From Rugalucina vietnamica (lineage: Eukaryota; Mollusca; Bivalvia; Lucinida; Lucinidae): 64,000 bases of DNA. Both the position numbers and the translations under genes were made by a program. Positions within the stretch are counted from its first letter, which is position 1; the number at the start of each line of letters is the position of its first letter. The notes beneath the pieces are model-generated. The model ran no database searches, was not told the origin of the DNA, and saw nothing but the letters and a program-made list of their open reading frames with translations. The DNA is taken from NCBI GenBank assembly GCA_964017185.1, contig OZ024876.1, forward strand, positions 34,697,278-34,761,277, given 5' to 3'. Of the stretch, positions 206 to 55,862 are shown in pieces.

Positions 206-361
206 GAAGCTCTGGAGACGAGAACAAAACTCATGCAGGACAACAATGAGAAACTAAAGGTACAGGTGGACTCGTACAAGAAACGACTCGGGGCCGTTAC
301 GAGAGAGAAGAGAGAATACGAGGAGAAATTCCTTAAACTCACACAGGAAGTACAGAGAAAG
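206..361 (+). CDS. CNTLN: Centlein-like coiled-coil protein, internal exon (exon A)
   Basis: This 156-nt exon (52 codons, phase 0 at both ends) follows the acceptor TTGTTATAG and ends at the donor AAG|GTACGA. The peptide is highly charged (E, K, R, Q) with heptad-like leucines and no proline, as in a long coiled coil. It reads in phase with the later exons at 4257, 5131, 7426 and 19060, which together supply about 245 C-terminal residues. The naming as centlein, a centrosomal linker protein of about 1,400 residues, rests on my recollection of its C-terminal region (an NLSxSDL-type motif, then a short lysine-rich exon and an LEKMxER-type helix). It could be another centrosomal coiled-coil protein. 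The 5' part of the gene lies left of the window. Confidence 0.55.
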
Positions 362-391
362 GTACGACCAAACAAAACTATATACTTCATC

Positions 392-667
392 ATGAAAACA
401 TATCCGTGTAATATATACCCCCTTAAACCCCACTATTATATAGCAAAACTGGGGTATGCAGGGGTATACCCATTTTTCTTATTTTTGCTCCAAAACATAG
501 ATTGTGGGTACTCGTTAGAACCGCCTCGCCGAGGCAGTTCTAACATGTACCCACAATCTATGTTTTGGGCAAAAATAAGAAAAATATCAAAAATTTTCTG
601 CAGAAAATTTTCAATTTTTACAACTTAAGAAAAATCTATATGTTACATGGGCGTGTTTTCGTAATGT
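392..667 (-). repeat. Hairpin element family M2, full copy
   Basis: Both ends are present: CATGAAAACATATCCGTG at the left, and CATGGGCGTGTTTTCGTAAT at the right as its near-complement. The central palindrome at about 505-560 has GTTAGAACCGCC pairing with GGCAGTTCTAAC, with one stem mismatch, flanked by inverted copies of CATAGATTGTGGGTAC. It lies in the intron right after exon A. Confidence 0.8.
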
Positions 668-824
668 GTTTCCAGTTTTGCCATGAAAATGATAAGGCTA
701 ATTTGGTTGATTTTCAAATGTTATTTTTTTTTTTTTTTATCTGATATTACTAGAAATGAAAAGAAAGCTTTTTTTGCTGGTGAAGATGATAGTGGAAAGG
801 GCCAAGTTAACTGTTACATATAAA
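668..824. other. Intron sequence with T-rich tract
   Basis: Intronic sequence between an M2 copy and a HINE. It has a T-run near 724-738 and no recognisable element. Confidence 0.5.
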
Positions 825-2262
825 ACCAGAGGACCAATGGTCCTGTAAACGCTCACCTGAGATCTGCTGTACATATGAATGTTATAGAAAATAGTCCCAG
901 TATAGGGGCAGATGAAGCCCTTGGGCCATTTGTTTTTCAGAATAATCAATATACTGTCCATACAAGTTTTTCCCTTCAAATGACATTTTAACAGTTTACC
1001 CATTCAAATACATAGGCAACCCATGTTGACCTTGCCTTAAAATAGGTCAAGGTCATCACAGGGTCATGATTTATACATACATTGTAGTACTTAAGTCATT
1101 GATGCTTCATGCCAAGTTTCTTCGAAATTGGTCCACCGGTTCCGGAGAAGAAGGTTTTTGAAGGGTTTATATCATATATGGGCATGGCGGCCATCTTGGT
1201 CATGTGACCTTGATTATTTATATACACATTGATTCCCCCATTCTATAGATGCTTCACAGAAATTTGGCTTTGATTGGCCAAGTGGTTTCAGAGGAGAAGA
1301 TGTTTGAATATTATTGTAATATACATGTATAATGCCCCGGGGCTGGGGCAAATGAGCCCCGGGGTCCAAATTTTTTCAGAATCATTAATATTCAGTCCTA
1401 CTGCCCATTTCCTGCAAGACTTTCACTTTAAATGACATTTCAAATGCATTGGCGACCTGTGTTGACATTGCTGTAAAATAGGTCAAGGTCATCTATATAC
1501 ACATTGAAGTGCTTGAGCCATCAATGCTTCATGCCAAGTTTCTTCGAAATCGGTCAACCCGTTCCAGAGAAGAAGATTTTTGAAGGGTTTTTACCATATA
1601 TGGGCATGGCGGCCATCTTGGTCATGTGACCTGGATTTCTTATATACACATTGGTTCCCCCTTCATATAGATGCTTCATATAAAATTTGGCTTTCATTGC
1701 CCAAGCGGTTTCAGAGGAGATGTTTGAATATTATGGTAATATACATGTGTTATGCCCCAGGGTGGGGGCAAATGAGCCCCTGGGGTCCAGTTTTTTCAGA
1801 ATCATTAATATTCAGTCCTAATGCCCATTTCTTGCAAGACTTTCACTTTAAATGTCATTTTAAAAGTTTTCCCCATTCAAATGCATTGGGGACCTATGTT
1901 GACCTTGCCGTAAAATAGGTCAGGGTCATCACAGGGTCATGATTTATATACACATTGAAGTGCTTGAGCCATCAATGCTTAATGCCAAGTTTCAATGAAA
2001 TCGGTCCACCGGTTCTGGAGAAGAAGATTTTTGAAGGGTTTTTACCATATATGGGCATGGCGGCCATCTTGGTCATGTGACCTGCATTATTTATATACAC
2101 ATTGGTTCCCCCTTCCCATAGATGCTTCATGTAAAATTTGGCTTTGATTGGCCAAGCTGTTTCAGAGAAGAAGATCTTTGAAAATGGTGGACGACGGACG
2201 GACGACGGAGCATGGGTATACTATAAGCTCACCTTGTGAGCCTGACGGCTCAGGTGAGCTAA
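825..2262 (-). mobile_element. Helentron-like non-autonomous element (HINE), copy 1
   Basis: In the - orientation it begins TTTTTAGCTCACCTGA-like (here GGTGAGCTAAC on +, at about 2250-2262) and ends with the palindrome AGGACCAATGGTCCT followed by CTGGT (825-845 on +). Subterminal GCTCACCTGA and TCAGGTGAGC are complementary. The body is a set of about 480-bp tandem units, each with CATATATGGGCATGGCGGCC, GGTCATGTGACC and AAGGTCATC motifs. This layout (subterminal inverted repeats, 3' hairpin before CTRRT, internal tandem repeats) matches Helentron-derived HINE elements. No Rep/helicase coding is present. Confidence 0.65.
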
Positions 2263-2511
2263 CAATAAAAATGTGAAAGCTGTCCGAGATAAAATGCAAA
2301 ATTAAAGATTCACAAAATCTTTAGGATAGAGGCATTAATTATGTTTTTCTATGAATATGAATAAATTGTTCTAGATTTGTTATAATGTAAATTGAGTAGT
2401 TCAGGAAACCAGAAAAACACTCATATTTTGCTTTGACCTTATGTCCAAAATGGTTAAGTGGCTGGCAGTTGGTAAGAACAGACAAATGGAATTGTAGTAA
2501 CAAGTTGATGT
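2263..2511. other. Intron, no recognised element
   Basis: AT-rich intronic sequence between a HINE and an M2 fragment. I see no gene or repeat in it. Confidence 0.4.
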
Positions 2512-2682
2512 ACCCACAATCTATGTTTTGGCTCAGAATAAGAAAAATAGGTATACCCCTGTAAACCCCAGTTTTACTATATAAAAATGGGGTATAAGAA
2601 GAAATACCGTACATGGCGGCGTAAATACTGGTACATTTCAGGGACATGTTTTCCTTTCAGGGACATGTTTTCCTGATGTTAC
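2512..2682 (+). repeat. Hairpin element family M2, right half
   Basis: Starts at ACCCACAATCTATGTTTTGG and runs through AAGAAAAATAGGTATACCCC to GGACATGTTTTCCTGATG. The left half with the palindrome is missing. The end segment GGACATGTTTTCC is duplicated at 2642-2675, next to the start of the splice-site array. Confidence 0.7.
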
Positions 2683-2792
2683 ATTGTCATTGATTGTGTT
2701 TTTCCAGGATACGATAGTGGTAGATTGTCAATGATTTGTCATTGCTTGTGTTTTCCAGGATAAGATAGTGGTAGATTGTCAGTGATATCATT

Positions 2793-3030
2793 TGAGCCGC
2801 CTAATGAGAAAACCAACAATCTACATTTGCGAAAACAAAGGCGCAGATCAGCTTCGCAGTAACACTGCGAAGCTGATGAGCGCCTTTGTTTTCGCTACAC
2901 GGATAGTACAATTCCTCTACTTTTTAAATTCAATATTGCCAGTCTCTAGCCATTTTCTGTGCTTGCAAAGCCCGGTTCGTGTCAGTCCTGTTCGCAAACC
3001 ACATTGTTGGTTTTCCCATGAGGTGGCTCA
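2793..3030 (+). repeat. GAGCC MITE (family M1), copy 1
   Basis: M1 is a roughly 235-bp element with inverted ends (GAGCCGCCTCATGAGAAAAC and GTTTTCTCATGAGGCGGCTC) and an internal stem-loop near the left third. Here the ends are intact. The stem allele is TTCGCAG paired with CTGCGAA, with two extra bases in the loop. It is inserted in the 51-bp splice-site array. Confidence 0.85.
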
Positions 3031-3445
3031 TTTGTCATTGCCTGTGTTTTCCAGGATAAGATAGTGGTAGATTGTCAGTGTTGTGTCATTGATTGTGTTT
3101 TCCAGGATAAGATAGTGGTAGATTGTCAGTGATTTATCATTGATTGTGTTTTCCAGGATAAGATAGTGATAGATTGTCAGTGATTTGTAATTGCTTGTGT
3201 TTTCCAGGATAAGATAGTGGTAGATTGTCAGTCATTTGTCATTGCTTGTGTTTTCCAGGATAATATAGTGATAGATTGTCAATGGTTTGTCATTGCTTGT
3301 GTTTCCAGGATAAGATAGTGATAGATTGTCAATGATTTGTCATTGCTTGTGTTTTCCAGGATAAGATAGTGATAGATTGTCAGTGATTTGTCATTGCTTG
3401 TGTTTTCCAGGATAAGATAGTGGTAGATTGTCAGTGATATCATTT

Positions 3446-3685
3446 GAGCCACCTCATGAGAAAACCAGCAATCTACGTTTACGAAAAACGAAGGCGCAGA
3501 TCAGCTTCGCAGTAACTGCGAAGCTGATCAGCGCCTTTGTTTTTGCTACACGGATAGTACAATTCCTCTACTTTATAAATCCAATATTGCCAGTCACTAG
3601 CCATTTTCTGTGCTTTTACAGCCCGGTTCGTGTCGGTCCTGTTCGCAAAACACATAGTTGGTTTTCCCACGAGGCGGCTCGGTTT
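3446..3685 (+). repeat. GAGCC MITE (family M1), copy 2
   Basis: Full copy with both inverted ends and stem allele TTCGCAG/CTGCGAA. The sequence before it (GTCAGTGATATCATTTGAGC) is the same as before copy 1, so the two are probably one insertion later duplicated with its surrounding 51-bp units. Confidence 0.85.
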
Positions 3686-4256
3686 TGTCATTGGTTGTGT
3701 TTTCATGATAGTTTGTCATTGATTTGTCATTGGTTGTGTTTTCTAGGATAAGATAGTGGTAGATTGGCAGAGTTTTGTCATTGATTGTGTTTTCCAGGAT
3801 AAGATAGTGATAGATTGTCAGTGATTTGTCATTGGTTGTGTTTTCCAGGATAAGATAGTGATAGATTGTCAGTGATTTGTCATTGCCCGTGTTTTCCAGG
3901 ATAAGATAGTGATAGATTGTCAGTGATTTGTCATTGCCCGTGTTTTCCAGGATAAGATAGTGATAGATTGTCAGTGATTTGTCATTGCCCGTGTTTTCCA
4001 GGATAAGATAGTGATAGATTGTCAGTGATTTGTCATTGGTTGTGTTTTCCAGGATAAGATAGTGATAGATTGTCAGTGATTTGTCATTGGTTGTGTTTTC
4101 CAGGATAAGATAGTGATAGATTGTCAGTGATTTGTCATTGGTTGTGTTTTCCAGGATAAGATAGTGATAGATTGTCAGTGATTTGTCATTGGTTGTGTTT
4201 TCCAGGATAAGATAGTGATAGATTGTCAGTGATTTGTCATTGGTTGTGTTTTCCAG

Positions 4257-4442
4257 GATAAGATAGTGATAGATTGTCAGAGTAAGAAGATGGAGCTGGA
4301 GTCAGCACTGGCAGAGATGGAGAAGACTGCCACACAGCAGATGAAATGTCTCGCTCGTGAGAGTGAAGATGCTCTCGAAACGGCTAAGGATAAACTCAGA
4401 GAGATTGGGCTCACGCTGCAGGCTTATCAGCGATTTATTAGG
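4257..4442 (+). CDS. CNTLN: Centlein-like coiled-coil protein, exon B
   Basis: This 186-nt exon (62 codons, phase 0-0) follows acceptor TTGTGTTTTCCAG and ends at donor AGG|GTAGAG. It opens with residues DKIVIDCQSKK and continues as an uninterrupted alpha-helical, glutamate-rich segment with two cysteines, then leads into a tail around LTLQAYQRFI. A start at 4281 (after GTCAG) would also keep frame, but that site has no pyrimidine tract and would drop eight helix-compatible residues. The first 24 bases of this exon are repeated upstream in the tandem array. It is joined by the same phase to exons at 5131, 7426 and 19060. Confidence 0.65.
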
Positions 4443-4523
4443 GTAGAGGAGTGTTATTTAATGAATTATTTACAACATCAATATTTTACCACTGTTTGGT
4501 AAAGGATCTATACTCATTGGGGC

Positions 4524-5130: not shown

Positions 5131-5325
5131 TCATTATCCCAGGAAATAGTCCGACGAACTCAGCAGACACGCACCTCCATGAAAGAAGAGTCCTTGAAGA
5201 AATCAGGGGCAGATAACTCTACCGTGTCAATGCAGAAGGCTCAAGATTTGGCTAAAAATATCCTCAATCTGAGTCAGTCGGATCTAGATGAAATAATGAG
5301 CGCTGATGGAGAATCAACAAAAATG
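5131..5325 (+). CDS. CNTLN: Centlein-like coiled-coil protein, exon C
   Basis: A 195-nt exon of 65 codons, phase 0-0, from acceptor ATATTTTCAG to donor ATG|GTTAGT. The first half continues a basic helix (residues SQEIVRRTQQTR). The second half holds the segment AKNILNLSQSDLDEIM, which is the part that most suggests the conserved C-terminal region of centlein. An acidic tail (SADGES) follows. Confidence 0.65.
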
Positions 5326-7425: not shown

Positions 7426-7500
7426 GAAACTGAACTGGAAACGGAGAAAAGAAGGGACAAGAAATGGTTGAAAAAAGTTGATCGTACGCAGAACAGTAAG
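7426..7500 (+). CDS. CNTLN: Centlein-like coiled-coil protein, exon D
   Basis: A 75-nt exon of 25 codons, phase 0-0, from acceptor TTTTTGCAG to donor AAG|GTAGGG. It encodes a charged, lysine-rich helix (ETELETEKRRDKKWLKK). It is small, but both splice sites and the phase agree with exons C and E. Confidence 0.6.
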
Positions 7501-26329: not shown

Positions 26330-28258
26330 TCACACTTTATCACTGACTATTTTGTAAACTGCAATATCCTGAGACTTCCACCATGATACAACAACAGTAC
26401 CCAATGTTGCATTGTAAGCCACAGCACATGGTTTCTCTTCTCCCTCTAACTCCGTCAGTAGTCGGCCGTTAAACTGTCCATGTAGCATATAGAGGCCATC
26501 AGGATCTGTAGTCACGACAAAGAGGCTACCCCCTTTGTCACTGTCTATGCCCCAGTATTGCTTGATATTATCATCATGGTATTGATACAACACCTCACAG
26601 TCTTTGACTGTGCTGAAAGCTACTATTCCGTTCCTTAAATCTGATACATAGAATATGCTATTATCTTTACTCATTGTGACGTAACTCGGTTCTTGTAAAG
26701 TCCCATGTTTTGGAATAATGATTTTCTTGATTATGCCGTCTAAACCATAAACTTGTAGTTGGGTCTTCTTTCCTTCCCCACATGCAAGCCAGAGTGTTTT
26801 GTCAGTGCTATGATAGCCTATTCCATGACACTTGTATTCTGTCCGAACTTCATTCTGAACCACAAAGTCTCGACAAGCCTTCATGATTTTGATTGTTTTG
26901 ATGTAAGGAAATGACACAGCTATTATTTCTGTCTCAAGATCAGTAACGGCCCATGGACGGTCTTCAAACCATTTATGACATACAAGATCATATTCAGGAT
27001 TGAAAAGTTTCAGTCTTTGATTATTATAATCTACTAGAACCAGTCTGCCATTTGGTAAGAATGTGCAACCAGTCACACAGCATTCTGTTTTATCCTGATC
27101 TAGCTTTATCTCTTTCATGCCTGTCAGTTTCAGAGATATTTTACCCTTAACTGTCTCACCAGAGTCTGTATCCACATTATCATTCAGCTTTACGGCTTTA
27201 ACAGTTTTCATACTTGAATTTCCACCAGAGCTTTTACCCCCACCACTGTTCAACACACTCTTTCTAGAAGTATTGTCAAGCTTGTCTGCATTAGTCTCTT
27301 CATTCAGTTGTACCTTGGTATGTTTAATTACTCCTATAGATTCATGATTTTTCAGATATTCTTCCAAATCTTTGTTAGGATGAAACTCATATTTTGCTGT
27401 AGCAAGGGGATTTTTGTCTAAGCCAGTTAAAGTAGCCTCAGAGTCAGTTATAATTTTATCTAGCTTCTTTAAGCCTATCCATAGATCTATCTGTTTACCA
27501 GTGTGAAAAGCATCATCTATCTTTTCAACAGCATTTTCTAAAACTGGAGCTATACTCTTACATTGGTTAATTTCAGACATTATAATACCGATCTCTTTCC
27601 CAAAGTACTCTTCCTTTTCTGCCTTGAACTCATTCATTATATTCAGTATCATATCTATCAATTTGGTCTGTGTCTGATGAAGAATTTTGTCAAAACTCTC
27701 TTTCTGTTCATTTAGTTTTTGCAACTGTTTATTCTTCAGCTTTGTACTGTTTTTGCATCTTTGTATCATGTGAAATAACTCCGCTCTTGCATTTTGATGT
27801 TCTTTCTCTCGTTTTACATCAGCAGCCAATTTCTCAACAGTCTCAATAACCGGGCAATCCTTATGCTCCTCCTTTAGGCAAGTATTGCACACCAGCTCAC
27901 TACAGTTTAGGCAGTAACCCAACACCAACTTTGTTTTATGGATCTCACATTTGGCGACATAATTGAATGTTGGTTTCCGAATTACTCTCTCCTCTTCAAG
28001 CTTCCTAATTTTCACAGCCCAATGACTTTTCTTTTTCGGAATTTTGGGGTGTTTTGATGAGCATGGCTCACACAGAACTCCACAATATTTACAGTGGTAG
28101 GCTCCATCTCGTTCTCTCTTGAATTTTCTACACCCTGTACATTTTATATCATGTAATCCTTCATTGTCAATACCTAGAGCTTTTGGTCTCTGGTTTTCCG
28201 TCACATTTAGCTTTTTCTTTAATGTTATTGATGCCATAATGCTTTTCCTCCTTTCCAA
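26330..28258 (-). CDS. TRIM-like B-box / coiled-coil / beta-propeller protein
   Basis: This is a single open frame of 642 codons with no intron. Residues about 40-79 form a first zinc-binding module (C40, C43, C56, C59, C63, C66, H79). Residues 104-135 form a B-box2 type finger (C104, H107, C116, C119, C124, C127, H132, C135). Residues about 140-275 are a coiled coil. A Ser/Gly-rich linker (337-349) leads to about 250 residues with beta-propeller (NHL-like) strands, including motifs such as GRLVLVDYNNQRLKLF near 405-419. There is no RING finger before the first B-box, so a ubiquitin-ligase role is not supported. Large families of RING-less TRIM2/3/56-like genes are typical of bivalves, and some are linked to innate immunity; the role here is inferred only. 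Met8 is an alternative start. Confidence 0.85.
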   Translation of the reverse strand: MERRKSIMASITLKKKLNVTENQRPKALGIDNEGLHDIKCTGCRKFKRERDGAYHCKYCGVLCEPCSSKHPKIPKKKSHWAVKIRKLEEERVIRKPTFNYVAKCEIHKTKLVLGYCLNCSELVCNTCLKEEHKDCPVIETVEKLAADVKREKEHQNARAELFHMIQRCKNSTKLKNKQLQKLNEQKESFDKILHQTQTKLIDMILNIMNEFKAEKEEYFGKEIGIIMSEINQCKSIAPVLENAVEKIDDAFHTGKQIDLWIGLKKLDKIITDSEATLTGLDKNPLATAKYEFHPNKDLEEYLKNHESIGVIKHTKVQLNEETNADKLDNTSRKSVLNSGGGKSSGGNSSMKTVKAVKLNDNVDTDSGETVKGKISLKLTGMKEIKLDQDKTECCVTGCTFLPNGRLVLVDYNNQRLKLFNPEYDLVCHKWFEDRPWAVTDLETEIIAVSFPYIKTIKIMKACRDFVVQNEVRTEYKCHGIGYHSTDKTLWLACGEGKKTQLQVYGLDGIIKKIIIPKHGTLQEPSYVTMSKDNSIFYVSDLRNGIVAFSTVKDCEVLYQYHDDNIKQYWGIDSDKGGSLFVVTTDPDGLYMLHGQFNGRLLTELEGEEKPCAVAYNATLGTVVVSWWKSQDIAVYKIVSDKV

Positions 28259-28358
28259 GTGTCACATATTAATCCAAGAAAGTGTTGTTACATATGTTAA
28301 GTTTTTTTCTTCTGATTTAACATTTAGCTGTTTCACTGAAAAACACTTGTGTTTACTC

Positions 28359-33129: not shown

Positions 33130-33175
33130 TCACAAGACAGCAAAGCGGCATGTAGATAGCAAATCGCATACCAAC

Positions 33176-33374
33176 CCTGTGGTATCTTTTCTAGCAAAAC
33201 ATTCCATTATATGTTTCATGTGCTGAGATTCTCCCCGATACCATTTCTCGAGGTATTCTAAATTGTTACTCCATTTATCCGACAAGTATATCTCCTCAAA
33301 CCAGTTGACGGCAGCTATGACAGGGTAGATAGGCCCACTCCCCACATCTAGCAGTTTCTTCCCCTGCAGTTTAC
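33176..33374 (-). CDS. NNMT/INMT-family methyltransferase, exon 2
   Basis: The 199-nt exon begins after acceptor GTTGTCACTGCAG, with two bases completing a Gly codon. It ends at donor GG|GTTGGT, chosen because it alone keeps phase with exon 3; a nearby GTATGC donor would break the frame. It encodes the SAM-binding motif I, KKLLDVGSGPIYP, equivalent to the DIGSGPTIY motif of mammalian NNMT. The acidic/aromatic strand EEIYLSDKWSNNLEYLEKW follows, holding the residue that binds the ribose of SAM in the family. Confidence 0.88.
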
Positions 33375-33452
33375 CTGCAGTGACAACAATGGCCAGTTTA
33401 ATATGGACCGACGGGCCCTGGGTTACGCTGAATCGTGTCCTTGCTGTGGCAT

Positions 33453-33661
33453 TGAGCCGCGACGCGAGAGAACCTGTCTTAGGGGTTTCCGACCAGGTCC
33501 GACACAAACCGGCCTGTACAGCCTCAGAAGCAGGTTGGAATCTTGAAACTTTGGAGATAAGTAGAAGAGGGATTTTACTACCTGTGTAGCGAAAACAAAG
33601 GCGCTGATCAGCTGTGCAGTTACTGCATATGCAAAAATCCGGTATTCTCATGGCGCGGCTC
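33453..33661 (-). repeat. GAGCC MITE (family M1), TGTG stem broken
   Basis: GAGCCGCGACGCGAGAGAACC at the left and TTCTCATGGCGCGGCTCAA at the right. The stem's second arm is deleted after CAGCTGTGCAGTTACTGCA. Intron 1 of the methyltransferase gene. Confidence 0.75.
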
Positions 33662-33671
33662 AATTAATACA

Positions 33672-39620: not shown

Positions 39621-40610
39621 TTACTTTGGAAAAGAAAAACAATTGACTCTGATATATCTTTGAACAGCATTCGATTCCCAGCGACCCATACGCTTTATAT
39701 TATCCTCCGACAAACCTTGACAGAATGCCGACGTCGCAGCTCCGATACGAAACGAATGTGGCTTATATCGACTTTGGTCTAAACCGAGAAAAGATACAAT
39801 GATGCGTAATTTTTCAGAAACAAATGCATATGAAACAGGCAATCCATTTTGAAACTGAAACAATGGCCCAGATACATGCTTAAATTCACGAAGATATGCC
39901 TGCATTGCACGCACTGGACAACAACTTTCACTGTCGCGGTTTATAGGCAGTAAAAGCGTCATGGGTAACTGTTTCACGTTGTTTTTGAAATATCTGATAA
40001 TAACACGCATACCGACAACTGCCCTATCTCGGTAAATAAAACAAATATCATCTCTTTGAATAACACGGTTTTGAGAAACTCCATGTTTGACGCAGATTTC
40101 ACCCATTCGAAGAAAGGCATTAAAACTTAACAAGAATATAGCTTTCAATAGGGCCCTTTGGGAAAGAAGCATAACGGCCCTGGGCAATGCTAGTATCATT
40201 CTATGCAAAATAGTGGCAGTTATTGGTAAACGCATATCAAATGCAGAGCCATTTAATTTTTTAGCCCCTTTTAAAAACTGACGAACAAGAAAAGATGATG
40301 TCGGATCAGGATATCCTTGAATTTTATGAATAAAGGCGATAGCTGAAACATGCGATGCAATAGTGGAGGGTTGATAACCCAGATGAAACAAGCTTGTCAG
40401 AAAATTCAATAATAAAATGACCGAAACTGGAAGACAAACATTAACTCTGTTCCTACGGCCATACTCTGAGAATTTTTCCCAGACTTTTAAGTACGCTGTT
40501 TTTGTCTTCTTGTCTAAAGACGCCATAATAATTTCAGATGCGTCAGGAGTTAAATACGTAGCAGAGCTGCTGGCAGAACACATGGGTTGTCGGCTAGCCA
40601 AGGAGCCCAT
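39621..40610 (-). CDS. Ngaro tyrosine recombinase (YR)
   Basis: This intact 329-codon frame integrates the element by site-specific recombination in place of an integrase. Visible catalytic residues are R168 (FLRMGE), H285 and R288 (HSFR), W311 in the second-histidine position (GRW), and Y319 as the nucleophile. The N-terminal half (about 30-125) is the helical core-binding domain. Its start overlaps the end of the RT gene by 61 nt in another frame, so translation by re-initiation or frameshift is likely. Confidence 0.9.
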   Translation of the reverse strand: MGSLASRQPMCSASSSATYLTPDASEIIMASLDKKTKTAYLKVWEKFSEYGRRNRVNVCLPVSVILLLNFLTSLFHLGYQPSTIASHVSAIAFIHKIQGYPDPTSSFLVRQFLKGAKKLNGSAFDMRLPITATILHRMILALPRAVMLLSQRALLKAIFLLSFNAFLRMGEICVKHGVSQNRVIQRDDICFIYRDRAVVGMRVIIRYFKNNVKQLPMTLLLPINRDSESCCPVRAMQAYLREFKHVSGPLFQFQNGLPVSYAFVSEKLRIIVSFLGLDQSRYKPHSFRIGAATSAFCQGLSEDNIKRMGRWESNAVQRYIRVNCFSFPK

Positions 40611-42166
40611 TTCTTGGCGTCCTGTAATTGAAAACGAGATAAATTATCGGCAACGTAGTTTGTCTTTCCAGGCACATGCTTGCAACGAAAAACAATATTG
40701 TACGTCATTGTGGCTACAACTAAGCGCCGTACCAGCTTCATCATAATAGGGTCTTTGGAAGACATTTTGTTGACTACATACACTGTAGCTTCATTATCCG
40801 ATAAGAACAAAATTCTCTGATTTGCCATATCTGTGCCCCATAGCTCGACTGCAAGGACAATTGGAAATAACTCTAAAATATTAATATGCATATCCGAGAA
40901 TTCAGGCGGCCAAGTATGCATAAACCATTGGCATCCAAATACCGCAGCAAAACCTTTCGTAGACGCTGCATCGGTATACAAACGAAGGATATCAGACGCA
41001 ACCCAATCACCTGACAATAGCACATGTTGGCCATTAAACCCAGACATGAAGATTTCCCACGCGGCTAAATCAGCCCTTGCTTCATTATTTAATCTAATGA
41101 AATGATTTGGATTCGAAACATTTATGGTAAGATCATACAATCTGCGTAAAAACGCTCTCCCCGGAACAACACAACCCGTGGCAAAATTGAGTAACCCTAA
41201 TAGTGACTGAAGCTCTTTCAGGATCACCTTTTTCCGTTTTGAAAATTCTGTTAACATGTTTTTGATTTTTGTAACTTTTTCGTCGGGTAACCTGCTAATC
41301 ATTTCGCTCGAATCTACCTCAATTCCATAAATGACCAGCTTGGTACTAGGCCAGACTGTCTTTTCACGTTTAAGTGGTATCCCAATATCTTCACAAATGG
41401 AAATAAAACTTGCTAAATCGGAATGACATTTGATTGAATTTGCCGGGCCAATAAAGAAAAAATCATCTAATATATGGCTCATCGAAGCGCCAAAGTTATG
41501 AGACATGATCCACTGCAACGAAGAACTGAAACGTTCAAAACACTGACACGCCGCGGATAAACCCATGGGTAACGCACAATCCATGTAAAACTGTAGGTCA
41601 CCGTTATTGTCCGGCCAAGTAAAGCAGAGCAAATGCCTATCAAGAGGATTGATAGGAAGCAAGCGGAACGCATTTGAAATATCGGTTTTCGCCATTAATG
41701 CATTTTTCCCGAAACTCCTTATTAAGGAGGTAACCGTATCGATATTATCATATACCACTTGACTATCTAATTTATCAATACGCGAAGTAACCGACTCGGA
41801 ACGTGGGAATGACAAGTCATGGATCAAGCGAAACGACCCTGCCCCATGTTTTGGAATTAATGCCAAAGGTGAACATATCAATGGCTCACATGGCGGAAAC
41901 GGAAAAGGCCCCCGTACCCTGCCAGCGACGATTTCATCATTGATCATACGACTTACAACCAACGGGTTGCGGATTGCAGATATATGATTTCGAGAAATTC
42001 TAGAAATACAAGGACCCTGATATGGAACTCGAAAACCAAAAGCAAAACCTTGATATAAAAACTCCCGTTCCTTATCATCATAGCCATCAAGATAATGACG
42101 AAGACGTTCAGCCTTAACTGGCGTAGGCATTACACTATCAGTTTGATTTCCGAAATGTCGGCCCAC
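40550..42166 (-). CDS. Ngaro reverse transcriptase / RNase H
   Basis: This intact frame has 538 codons. The RT part has motif A with D162 (KTDISNAF), the LPMGLS block at 199-204, and the catalytic pair D234/D235 in HILDDF. The RNase H part has D399 (YTDAA), E432, D457 (SDNEA) and D507 (ADNLS), so both active sites look complete. It makes element cDNA from RNA. It overlaps gag by 29 nt at its 5' end and YR by 61 nt at its 3' end, each in a different frame. Confidence 0.92.
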   Translation of the reverse strand: MGRHFGNQTDSVMPTPVKAERLRHYLDGYDDKEREFLYQGFAFGFRVPYQGPCISRISRNHISAIRNPLVVSRMINDEIVAGRVRGPFPFPPCEPLICSPLALIPKHGAGSFRLIHDLSFPRSESVTSRIDKLDSQVVYDNIDTVTSLIRSFGKNALMAKTDISNAFRLLPINPLDRHLLCFTWPDNNGDLQFYMDCALPMGLSAACQCFERFSSSLQWIMSHNFGASMSHILDDFFFIGPANSIKCHSDLASFISICEDIGIPLKREKTVWPSTKLVIYGIEVDSSEMISRLPDEKVTKIKNMLTEFSKRKKVILKELQSLLGLLNFATGCVVPGRAFLRRLYDLTINVSNPNHFIRLNNEARADLAAWEIFMSGFNGQHVLLSGDWVASDILRLYTDAASTKGFAAVFGCQWFMHTWPPEFSDMHINILELFPIVLAVELWGTDMANQRILFLSDNEATVYVVNKMSSKDPIMMKLVRRLVVATMTYNIVFRCKHVPGKTNYVADNLSRFQLQDAKKWAPWLADNPCVLPAALLRI

Positions 42167-43400
42167 GAGAAGTACTTGTGGGTGTAGCTACAGAAGTGCT
42201 TACGGGTGCGGTCTGTCCCTGAACCTGACGACTTAATAACGACATATTTTGACCCTGCGTGATGGCAGATTTAGTTGACACAGACTCCTGGGGGGCAGAC
42301 GCACGATCGCGCTGATTCCTTGCAAATGCAAAGCAGCTTATCCTTGAATGGTTACCCTTATAGCAAAAACTACACATATGACTAAAATTGCACTGGCGCC
42401 TGTCGCAACCACGAGCACTGTTAAACTTGAAGCAAACTTTTCGATTACCAACAGACGAACCAGTGCGTACATTGTTGCGACTGGCACCACCGCTAGCCAA
42501 GGACATCAACGCTGCCTTGTTCCACAACTCAGTGTGCATCTGACCCCAAGGTAAATTCTGTGTTTGTCTATGCGACCTAAATGAACGATCATAAAAGTTA
42601 AATGCATGCGTCCCACATGAACGCTCTAAGTCACGAATTAGGTTAGTATAAGCCAAAAGTCCTGAAGCCTCACTTGGAAATTTCTGCAAATATACATCTA
42701 TGTAACAATGAAATGCAGTTAACCATTGCCCAATACTATGATCTGGACCTTGTAATTGTTTAGGCTGAACTTTGACTACCGTTGAGGGTCCCTGGTTGGA
42801 TATGTTAACCGCGAAATCTTGTTTGACTTCCCCGCGGCTCTGAATTTGATACAGCTGTGACATTTCGATATATTTTTTGTCCCAAATTTGCGATTTAATT
42901 TTGTCTGGTACCAGTGCACTTAGTGCTAAACCATACGAATGACACTGGGATAGAGGCATCGCATTTAATTCCGTACCCGGTAATAAAGTGTCCGTAAACT
43001 GCCCCGCAGCTAACTGGTTGCCACCATTGGATTCTTGCGCCAATTCCTGAGTCAAGTCACGCGTGCCAGGTAACGCCCCCTTATCATTCAGCTGATCCGC
43101 AGGAGCGACTCGAATGGGCTCCACCGCTGCCCCCAGATTTCGCCTTTGGTCCATAGACTGAAATACTAGACCCCTTTCAACCATTTTGTCCAGCATTATA
43201 TCGGCTAATTTATCAAGGGGCACAGCCTCAGTGACAGCCTCAGTTACATCCCCCTGCTGGTCATTCTTATCGGCAGCATTATCAGTGGGTTCTTGAGCCC
43301 TCTTGCCCCTTTTACTACGACGGGTAGCGACCTGATCCCCCAACGGCGCCTCAACATTTCGCTTCCTCTTAGGGGCCATATCTGAAGCTAAACAATACAA
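42138..43400 (-). CDS. Ngaro Gag-like protein
   Basis: This intact frame has 420 codons; Met8 (MAPKRKR) is an alternative start. The N-terminus is basic, a central stretch (about 215-300) resembles capsid-like helices, and the C-terminal part has two zinc modules. These are CCCH type (C323, C332, C337, H341) and knuckle type (C343, C346, H351, C356). Such fingers bind RNA in DIRS/Ngaro Gag proteins. The Ser/Thr/Gln-rich tail ends 29 nt into the RT gene. Confidence 0.85.
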   Translation of the reverse strand: MYCLASDMAPKRKRNVEAPLGDQVATRRSKRGKRAQEPTDNAADKNDQQGDVTEAVTEAVPLDKLADIMLDKMVERGLVFQSMDQRRNLGAAVEPIRVAPADQLNDKGALPGTRDLTQELAQESNGGNQLAAGQFTDTLLPGTELNAMPLSQCHSYGLALSALVPDKIKSQIWDKKYIEMSQLYQIQSRGEVKQDFAVNISNQGPSTVVKVQPKQLQGPDHSIGQWLTAFHCYIDVYLQKFPSEASGLLAYTNLIRDLERSCGTHAFNFYDRSFRSHRQTQNLPWGQMHTELWNKAALMSLASGGASRNNVRTGSSVGNRKVCFKFNSARGCDRRQCNFSHMCSFCYKGNHSRISCFAFARNQRDRASAPQESVSTKSAITQGQNMSLLSRQVQGQTAPVSTSVATPTSTSRGPTFRKSN

Positions 43401-55065: not shown

Positions 55066-55619
55066 CTATGACGGAACTAGTTTTAAAGCCGGGTTCCACA
55101 CTGTTGCCGCAGCAATAGCGGAAGAAAGTAGTCCCAATATTCCTTGAGTCCGTGGTGACAGCTTTATATATCCTAGTGTACTCATCGGAATGGACAAATC
55201 AAACAAGTTCTTTACTGTTTCCAGGAAAAGTGTCCTGTTCTCTTCAATGACGTGCAACAATTTCCTTTCTCGGCTTGGAATTGTGCGGTAATTTGTATCC
55301 CCATTTATGTACGGACTGTTTTTCTTCCGCGTGGCGGACTTGTTCAGCTCTTCTACAAGCAGGTTCCAAACACCGTAGAAATCCCGGACCAGGTTCAACA
55401 GAAGAGTTGCCAAATAGAACCGGGAGGACATTTCTGACCAGTATTGTTTATTCAGCTTTATCGCCCCTACATTATTGAACCAGAGAAAATGATCAAACAG
55501 TAAATAGAAGGCTTGGTTGATCTTTGAAAGCGTTATGGTCAGTCGTAGAACAACGTCCTTGAGATGTAAACTCTTTAGGGCGCCTTGAATAAAATCCAAA
55601 CTCTTTCCAAACCTCAACA
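55066..55619 (-). CDS. PEX11: PEX11 peroxisomal membrane protein, exon 3 (terminal)
   Basis: The acceptor is CTTTTTTCTTCGCAG. Two bases complete a Leu codon, then 183 codons and TAG. It holds most of the protein: LRFGKSLDFIQGALKS, the segment LKDVVLRLTITLSKIN, the aromatic FDHFLWFNNVG, then YLATLLLNLVRDFYGVW and the C-terminal hydrophobic region LGYIKLSPRTQGILGLLSSA that ends near WNPALKLVPS. These blocks follow the same order as in human PEX11A/B. PEX11 bends and elongates peroxisomal membranes during fission and sits in that membrane. Confidence 0.92.
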
Positions 55620-55665
55620 CTGCGAAGAAAAAAGTATAGATACATTTTAATATAAATTGAGGAGG

Positions 55666-55862
55666 AAGGGATGCATAGTGGCAAAGCATGGTATTCCAAG
55701 TGGAAAGGTCCTGGGTTCGAACCCCATGTGCACCGTGATGTGTCCTAAACGCCTGGTATAAAGTTTTCCAGATTGTTTTTGTTAAAACTCAGCAGGTGAT
55801 GGTTCCGTCCCGTCATGACTGAAAATTGTTGACTAGGCCACTGCAAAGAATTAATAAAACTA
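55666..55862 (+). repeat. tRNA-derived SINE in PEX11 intron 2
   Basis: GATGCATAGTGGCAAAGCAT (A-box region), CTGGGTTCGAACCCCATG (B box), GTTCCGTCCCGTCATGACTG in the body, and the tail AATTAATAAAAC. Antisense to the gene, starting 46 bases beyond the exon 3 acceptor. Confidence 0.8.

Follow-up and report, generated by a model that had tools for sequence, protein, structure and literature searches.

What becomes of a gene when the end of an intron, together with the first bases of the exon behind it, is multiplied about twenty-fold in tandem? Such an arrangement lies in the 64,000-nucleotide stretch of DNA from the bivalve Rugalucina vietnamica that was analysed here (the window), and an initial annotation, made from the letters of this stretch, had proposed that splice choice among the copies could act as a dosage switch that varies with copy number.

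Identity of the host gene

A BLAST search of the window and the preceding 60 kb (together a 124-kb region) with a human centlein (CNTLN) protein sequence, a query written out by hand, returned 15 hits, of which 11 lie on the plus strand and in order between -42,854 and 5,307 (window coordinates), the best with an E value of 2e-11. Three shuffled control queries gave best E values of 0.4, none and 2.5. Three of the 11 colinear hits (E 0.77, 7.3 and 8.5) are no better than the shuffled queries, the one at 8.5 being the exon that bears the donor array described below, and the four hits off the line have E values of 2.0-6.5. As Pfam returned only weak matches for the centlein exons, below the curated cut-offs, the identification is based on the hand-written human query and the shuffled controls, and judged by this comparison the host gene is a centlein homologue.

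Within the window, the exon before the array (206-361, plus strand) is an open frame that ends in phase 0 (...LTQEVQRK) at a donor GT at 362 and corresponds to residues 1189-1223 of the human query (E 0.027), the match ending at 361. It is followed by a predicted intron of 3,895 bp (362-4256, plus strand), which contains the array except for the exon part of its last copy, and by an exon of 186 nt (4257-4442, plus strand; DKIVIDCQSKKMELESALAEME...QRFIR), open and in phase, with a donor GT at 4443, which matches query residues 1236-1285 (E 0.062), residue 1236 starting at 4293. The next exon (5131-5325, plus strand; SLSQEIVRRTQQ...MSADGESTKM) is again an open frame, in phase with the other two, and matches query residues 1283-1344 (E 2e-4), while an open stretch at 7426-7500 (plus strand, end approximate; ETELETEKRRDKKWLKK...), chosen by eye and without a centlein match of its own, is a likely further exon.

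Residues 1223 and 1236 of the human query are separated by 12 residues, or 36 nt, which is exactly the length of the interval 4257-4292. This agrees with the exon start at 4257 given in the initial annotation and places the eight repeated codons most likely in the ancestral exon, from whose edge the array would have grown into the intron. The opposite course, in which the repeat began within the intron and replaced or lengthened the start of the exon, making the 24 exon bases repeat-derived, could call upon the identity of the exon head with the nearest copies and upon a second in-phase AG at 4279-4280; however, the spacing in the human query leads one to expect eight codons at just this place, and we regard an intronic origin as highly improbable.

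Other features of the window, all on the minus strand, are an element at 39621-43400 that combines a reverse transcriptase (Pfam RVT_1, 7e-9) with a frame resembling a phage integrase (0.002, under the cut-off) and that we take to be of DIRS-like make-up, a PEX11 gene at 55066-55788 (2e-35), an NNMT/PNMT-type piece at 33130-33663 (3e-10) and a B-box protein frame at 26330-28261 (8e-6).

Anatomy and history of the acceptor array

A 51-bp unit is present 21 times at 2684-4280 on the plus strand, amounting to 20 decoy acceptors and the true one at 4257. The unit consists of 24 nt of intron end including the AG (TTTGTCATTGGTTGTGTTTTCCAG), 24 nt of exon head (GATAAGATAGTGATAGATTGTCAG), corresponding to the first 24 nt of the true exon, and 3 nt, usually TGA, which corrects the earlier description of an intron end plus 24 exon bases. 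The earlier count of about 21 copies was borne out by a window scan with a 37-nt core spanning acceptor and exon, which found 21 plus-strand places with 0-7 mismatches, all within 2695-4280, the next best places having 16 mismatches on the plus strand and 14 on the minus strand. The AG is kept in all 21 copies, and two of them, with cores at 2695 and 3296, have an indel of one base.

The copies do not form one uninterrupted array, since a dispersed hairpin element of about 245-250 bp breaks them twice, and Tandem Repeats Finder reports period 51 at 2684-2786 (2.0 copies), 3030-3438 (8.0 copies) and 3706-4280 (11.3 copies). In the first block the decoy exons start at 2708 (1-base insertion) and 2759, after which the first hairpin copy (2787-3029, approximate) lies within a unit. 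The second block holds eight copies, with decoy starts at 3055, 3106, 3157, 3208, 3259, 3309 (1-base deletion), 3360 and 3411, and is followed by the second hairpin copy (3439-3690, approximate) at the same point of the unit. Decoys in the third block start at 3747, 3798, 3849, 3900, 3951, 4002, 4053, 4104, 4155 and 4206, and then comes the true copy, which, as had been noted from the outset, runs on into the open coding exon at 4257. A 234-aa open frame on the minus strand (3597-4301; repeat LTIYHYLILENTTNDKS) spans the array and is probably a by-product of its stop-free 51-base period.

The acceptor array is a single place in the genome. Across all 1,089,854,562 bases (1.09 Gb) in 47 contigs, the junction-spanning 20-mer TTTTCCAGGATAAGATAGTG is matched exactly at 17 places and with one mismatch at 4, each of these 21 inside the array, and at two mismatches there are a further 9 scattered places; read backwards, the same 20-mer has no match in the whole genome.

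The closer a decoy lies to the exon, the smaller its distance from the true copy (Spearman -0.60, P 0.005, 20 decoys), and across 48 bases the true copy and the four decoys before it (starts 4053-4206) are identical. The true splice site itself seems to take part in the turnover of the array. The two hairpin copies with their flank are 92% identical, including identical first 60 junction bases, and sit at the same point of the unit, whereas some 20 further BLAST matches to the element within the window reach 86% at best; this pattern is best explained by a single insertion and the later duplication of a block of some 650 bp.

Assembling tandem arrays is difficult, and a copy number taken from one assembly may be wrong. 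Nevertheless, the window is free of N, the units differ in an ordered way and a transposon-like element lies inside the array, all of which speaks against an assembly artefact. Likewise, the related notion of a dead gene sits badly with centlein exons that are open and colinear over about 48 kb, and with a search for the three window exons that found no second copy elsewhere in the genome at E values up to 0.001. We therefore consider an artefact or a dead gene extremely improbable.

Decoy acceptors and the predicted outcome of their use

Compared with the true site from -20 to +3, five of the 20 decoys are identical, eight differ at one base and five at two or three, the remaining two being further away owing to their 1-base indel; the initial annotation had accordingly been correct in describing about 20 near-identical acceptors upstream. 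When the donor at 362 is joined in silico to each decoy, all 20 readings reach a stop inside the array. In sixteen the 24 exon-like bases run directly into TGA, so that DKIVIDCQ or a variant of it precedes the stop, in agreement with the early stop that had been foreseen for most copies, and four (starts 3055, 3208, 3259 and 3747) read on for 19 to 36 codons before stopping. Two open units had been listed before, near 3055 and 3753; the first is confirmed, the second corresponds to the start at 3747, and there are four such decoys, not two. According to the usual 50-nt rule, a premature stop far upstream of an exon junction leads to nonsense-mediated decay, and since the decoy stops lie far upstream of the 4442/5131 junction, this fate is predicted for the transcripts that use them.

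A branch-like adenosine at -24 (GTGAT in its common form) is the A of the closing TGA of the preceding copy. Most units, and likewise the true site, have this arrangement, with another candidate adenosine at -17, and the motif raises the prospect that the true acceptor may rely on repeat sequence. The true exon's own donor (GT at 4443) looks weak, with a score of 3.4 against 12.7 for the consensus by an approximate matrix. The unit columns give no sign of selection on the decoys: among the 18 in-register decoys, 7 of the 24 columns of the intron part vary, compared with 4 of the 24 columns of the exon-like part (P 0.49), so that no constraint on splice-critical columns was detected.

A donor array and a third repeated exon edge in the same gene

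Outside the window, an exon of the same gene at L005:1318-1449 (...LKETNQQLQSDLNLASQRLKVSKHSIQ) ends at CAG/GTAAGA (the slash marking the splice junction) and opens a donor array at L005:1318-6257 (window about -8681 to -3742), whose 88-bp units combine exon tail and CAG/GTAAGA, each copy after the exon being GTAA plus the exon's last 84 bases. Among the 28 donor copies listed, 27 keep GT and one has GC; a partial extra copy adds a GT at L005 4932, bringing the GT donors to 28, of which one is true and 27 are decoys. Each of the 27 later copies listed, the partial copy being outside this list, leads to a stop at codon 56. By direct reading, some 2.4 kb of different sequence, flanked on either side by ATACAG, splits the array. 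All 26 genome matches of a junction-spanning 22-mer at up to two mismatches fall within the donor array, which, unlike the acceptor array, has no similarity gradient toward its exon (rho 0.15, P 0.46).

The last donor unit ends in a weaker CAG/GTAAAC, with a score of 7.3 against 11.0 for the array donors by the approximate matrix, which suggests that the duplication, in bringing a G from the exon to position +5, strengthened the true donor. Downstream of the array, an exon (KLSNDVEKAQQEKTDLEKQM) starts at L005 7548; it can be aligned by eye with human centlein without gaps, whereas BLAST put the stretch elsewhere in the protein (E 2.0).

A BLAST comparison of 20 centlein coding stretches with approximate limits left 17 without a repeated copy, while two correspond to the large arrays and one gave a single extra hit. 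The latter is a third exon (KKRQKKPKRADPKELRHED; window about -23,880 to -23,600), in which, by direct reading, the acceptor and the first 15 coding bases are present three times, perhaps an early stage of an array.

Other arrangements known from splicing do not describe these arrays. An array of mutually exclusive or cassette exons was rejected, as neither unit type has a good partner site: the best donor-like site in the acceptor unit scores 2.3, or 3.3 where the unit has GTGGTA, compared with 11.0 for donors of the array (approximate matrix), and the donor unit offers at best 8 pyrimidines in 15 positions before an AG, against 11 in 15 at the true acceptor. NAGNAG tandem acceptors, with AGs three bases apart, are ruled out by the spacing of 51. 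Recursive splicing over an AG/GT ratchet was also discarded, the acceptor copies reading AG/GAT and the donor copies CAG/GT without a pyrimidine tract.

Exon-edge arrays elsewhere in the genome

A similarly built donor array is found in a second, unrelated gene. On contig C1 at about 30.15 Mb (L035:1117-3124), an exon of an SLC23-type transporter is followed by tandem GTGTCAG/GT donors, at least 30 including the true one in the 3.1 kb examined, in units that are mostly 58 bp and consist of GTAA and the exon's last 54 bases. The exon matches Pfam Xan_ur_permease (4e-8) and the solved SLC23A1 (3e-11; 53 of 53 residues ungapped). By these sequence matches, exon-edge donor arrays are present in at least two unrelated genes, centlein and the SLC23-type gene.

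More triple-donor arrays with units open up to CAG/GT were seen at C2:80546686, C3:76580367, C4:77910589 and C5:52308454. Peptides of 20-22 residues from these four arrays had no Pfam match, and one of them had no match among solved structures; the arrays are candidates for an exonic status, without a family match. Tandem TTTCCAGG arrays at C8:6051726, C10:49894149, C13:13244226 and C16:21527422 are candidate exon edges as well.

Are exon edges more prone to such arrays than other sequence? Counted at a period of 20-200 and at least three copies, tandem arrays make up 11.7% of the sequence in the 124-kb region, compared with 2.6% in a 200-kb sample (twenty 10-kb pieces of contigs C1 and C2). 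At the local density minus the two exon-edge arrays, 3.5 of 40 edges are expected to be hit by chance, compared with 2 of 40 observed (3 of 40 counting the short three-copy acceptor), and at the sample density the expectation is 1.05 of 40 (P 0.28 for at least two, 0.09 for at least three). At such densities the exon-edge arrays are explicable by chance; they recur, with no demonstrated excess over the density of tandem arrays. In the 200-kb sample no strong-donor array was found, and a looser acceptor scan, whose motif is lax, yielded five groups of at least three similar acceptor-like sites in the sample (L017, L020, L021) and six groups besides the acceptor array in the 124-kb region.

These counts bear on the idea that exon edges are hot spots of tandem duplication, for example through transcription- or splicing-linked breakage. 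Three exon edges in centlein and one in the SLC23-type gene would fit it, as would the genome search for three CAGGTAAG donors spaced 58-88, which gave 341 matches compared with 89 for the backwards motif, the SLC23-type exon edge being the first match listed, even though the single motif occurs slightly less often than its control (28,567 compared with 33,693). Yet by hand count among the matches listed, the donor loci on C1-C5 number only 9 against 7 for the control, the acceptor pattern falls below its control (55 matches, or 11 hand-counted loci, against 145), and the edges hit in centlein do not exceed the local expectation. Hence we think hot spots at exon edges distinctly unlikely.

Splice-site choice

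Taken together, we consider it probable that a minisatellite was born across an intron-exon boundary of centlein, that splicing is mainly exon-proximal, and that the array is a tolerated burden and not a dedicated switch. A tandem duplication across this boundary would have founded the minisatellite, each new copy bringing what looks like a complete acceptor, with pyrimidine tract, AG and a possible branch site, as well as the first 24 exon bases. Because the protein is preserved solely by the copy joined to the remainder of the exon, the surplus copies would all come to lie on the intron side, where unequal exchange would keep them turning over, the true splice site included. The same type of event would have produced the donor array and the three-copy acceptor, both in centlein, and the donor array of the SLC23-type gene.

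The only site that preserves the protein is, in either centlein array, the one nearest the exon remainder, and its use makes the exon shortest and the intron longest. Since exon definition pairs splice sites that lie nearest each other across an exon, splicing would mostly occur at this site, while a minority of transcripts would take neighbouring decoys and enter nonsense-mediated decay; with exon-proximal use and minor leakage, the array would be a burden that the gene tolerates. A minigene study (PMC9225289) reports that, under exon definition, the upstream, exon-proximal one of two identical donors is used exclusively. With acceptors, by contrast, it finds the advantage of the upstream site only weakened under exon definition. 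Going by this difference, leakage is expected to be low at the donor array and higher at the acceptor array, where the weak-looking donor of the true exon and the earlier transcription of the decoys would add to it; such leakage would lower centlein output. The lesser security of exon-proximal choice for acceptors than for donors, as it appears in that study, also counts against our preferred explanation, as do the low score of the exon's own donor and the donor array's want of a gradient.

The dosage switch of the initial annotation goes further: the decoys would compete, and the length of the array would set the share of productive centlein mRNA, varying between individuals. Near-identical competing sites, a stop behind every one of the 20 decoys and homogenised exon-adjacent copies, which suggest recent turnover, are in keeping with it, and work on human ABCA7 (PMC5954066) indicates that the length of a donor-bearing VNTR can accompany changes in splicing and dosage. 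The claim was not upheld, however, as the splice-critical columns show no sign of constraint and like arrays are expected by chance at exon edges, and we judge a dedicated switch unlikely.

Discussion

Both centlein arrays share unit size and the possession of a splice site with splice-site-bearing minisatellites of the ABCA7/IFI6 kind. The IFI6 (6-16) gene, according to work by Turri, Cuin and Porter from 1995, reportedly contains a minisatellite with multiple splice donor sites. There, as in centlein, one minisatellite supplies many splice sites of the same kind in one transcript, although the sites of IFI6 are donors in a reportedly shorter unit, whereas those of the window are acceptors at 51 bp. 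Tandem duplication of sequence that bears splice signals is also said, from studies by Zhuo in 2007 and by Gao and Lynch in 2009, to create introns; whereas that process makes new introns, the duplication in centlein multiplies one site of an existing intron.

For human ABCA7, PMC5954066 describes an intron 18 VNTR with a 25-bp unit whose first two bases are the exon 18 donor and whose length accompanies splicing changes; splicing at the donor of the following unit leads to a premature stop. The likeness lies in minisatellite units that carry a splice site and in the premature stop that follows use of the next one. The ABCA7 VNTR differs in being donor-side, with an intronic unit that has GT at its edge, whereas the centlein acceptor unit includes 24 nt of coding sequence, and in that length polymorphism and an RNA effect were demonstrated there, while the centlein array is known from its sequence. 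A study of human segmental duplications (PMC2812944) likewise describes internal tandem repeats that sit at exon-intron boundaries and are able to change splicing, with units of about 30 bp and four copies on average. These are minisatellites at exon-intron boundaries too, but there they change introns between paralogues, whereas here a single-copy gene holds about 20 acceptors and 28 donors. A literature search, carried out mostly outside the subscription literature, found no acceptor array of such size and no gene with both kinds of array; as the precedents (ABCA7, IFI6) are donor-side, an acceptor array, and both kinds in one gene, appear to be new relative to the literature searched.

Splice-site choice has usually been studied with two or three competing sites, which differ in strength too. 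With about 20 near-identical acceptors and 28 near-identical donors, position is almost the sole variable in centlein, and the arrays would set models of exon-centric and intron-centric proximity and of first-transcribed, first-used sites apart in a non-model animal. More tentatively, and in our estimate rather unlikely, the exon-edge splice-site arrays could form a recurrent class in ordinary genes, the centlein arrays jointly constituting a copy-number-sensitive filter with heritable differences in expression. If this were true, unequal exchange would alter the number of decoys and with it the share of productive mRNA, quickly enough for differences between individuals. The centlein array further indicates that a fast-changing repeat can embed a splice site, whereby the first bases of an exon and its splice signals may evolve in concert with a minisatellite.
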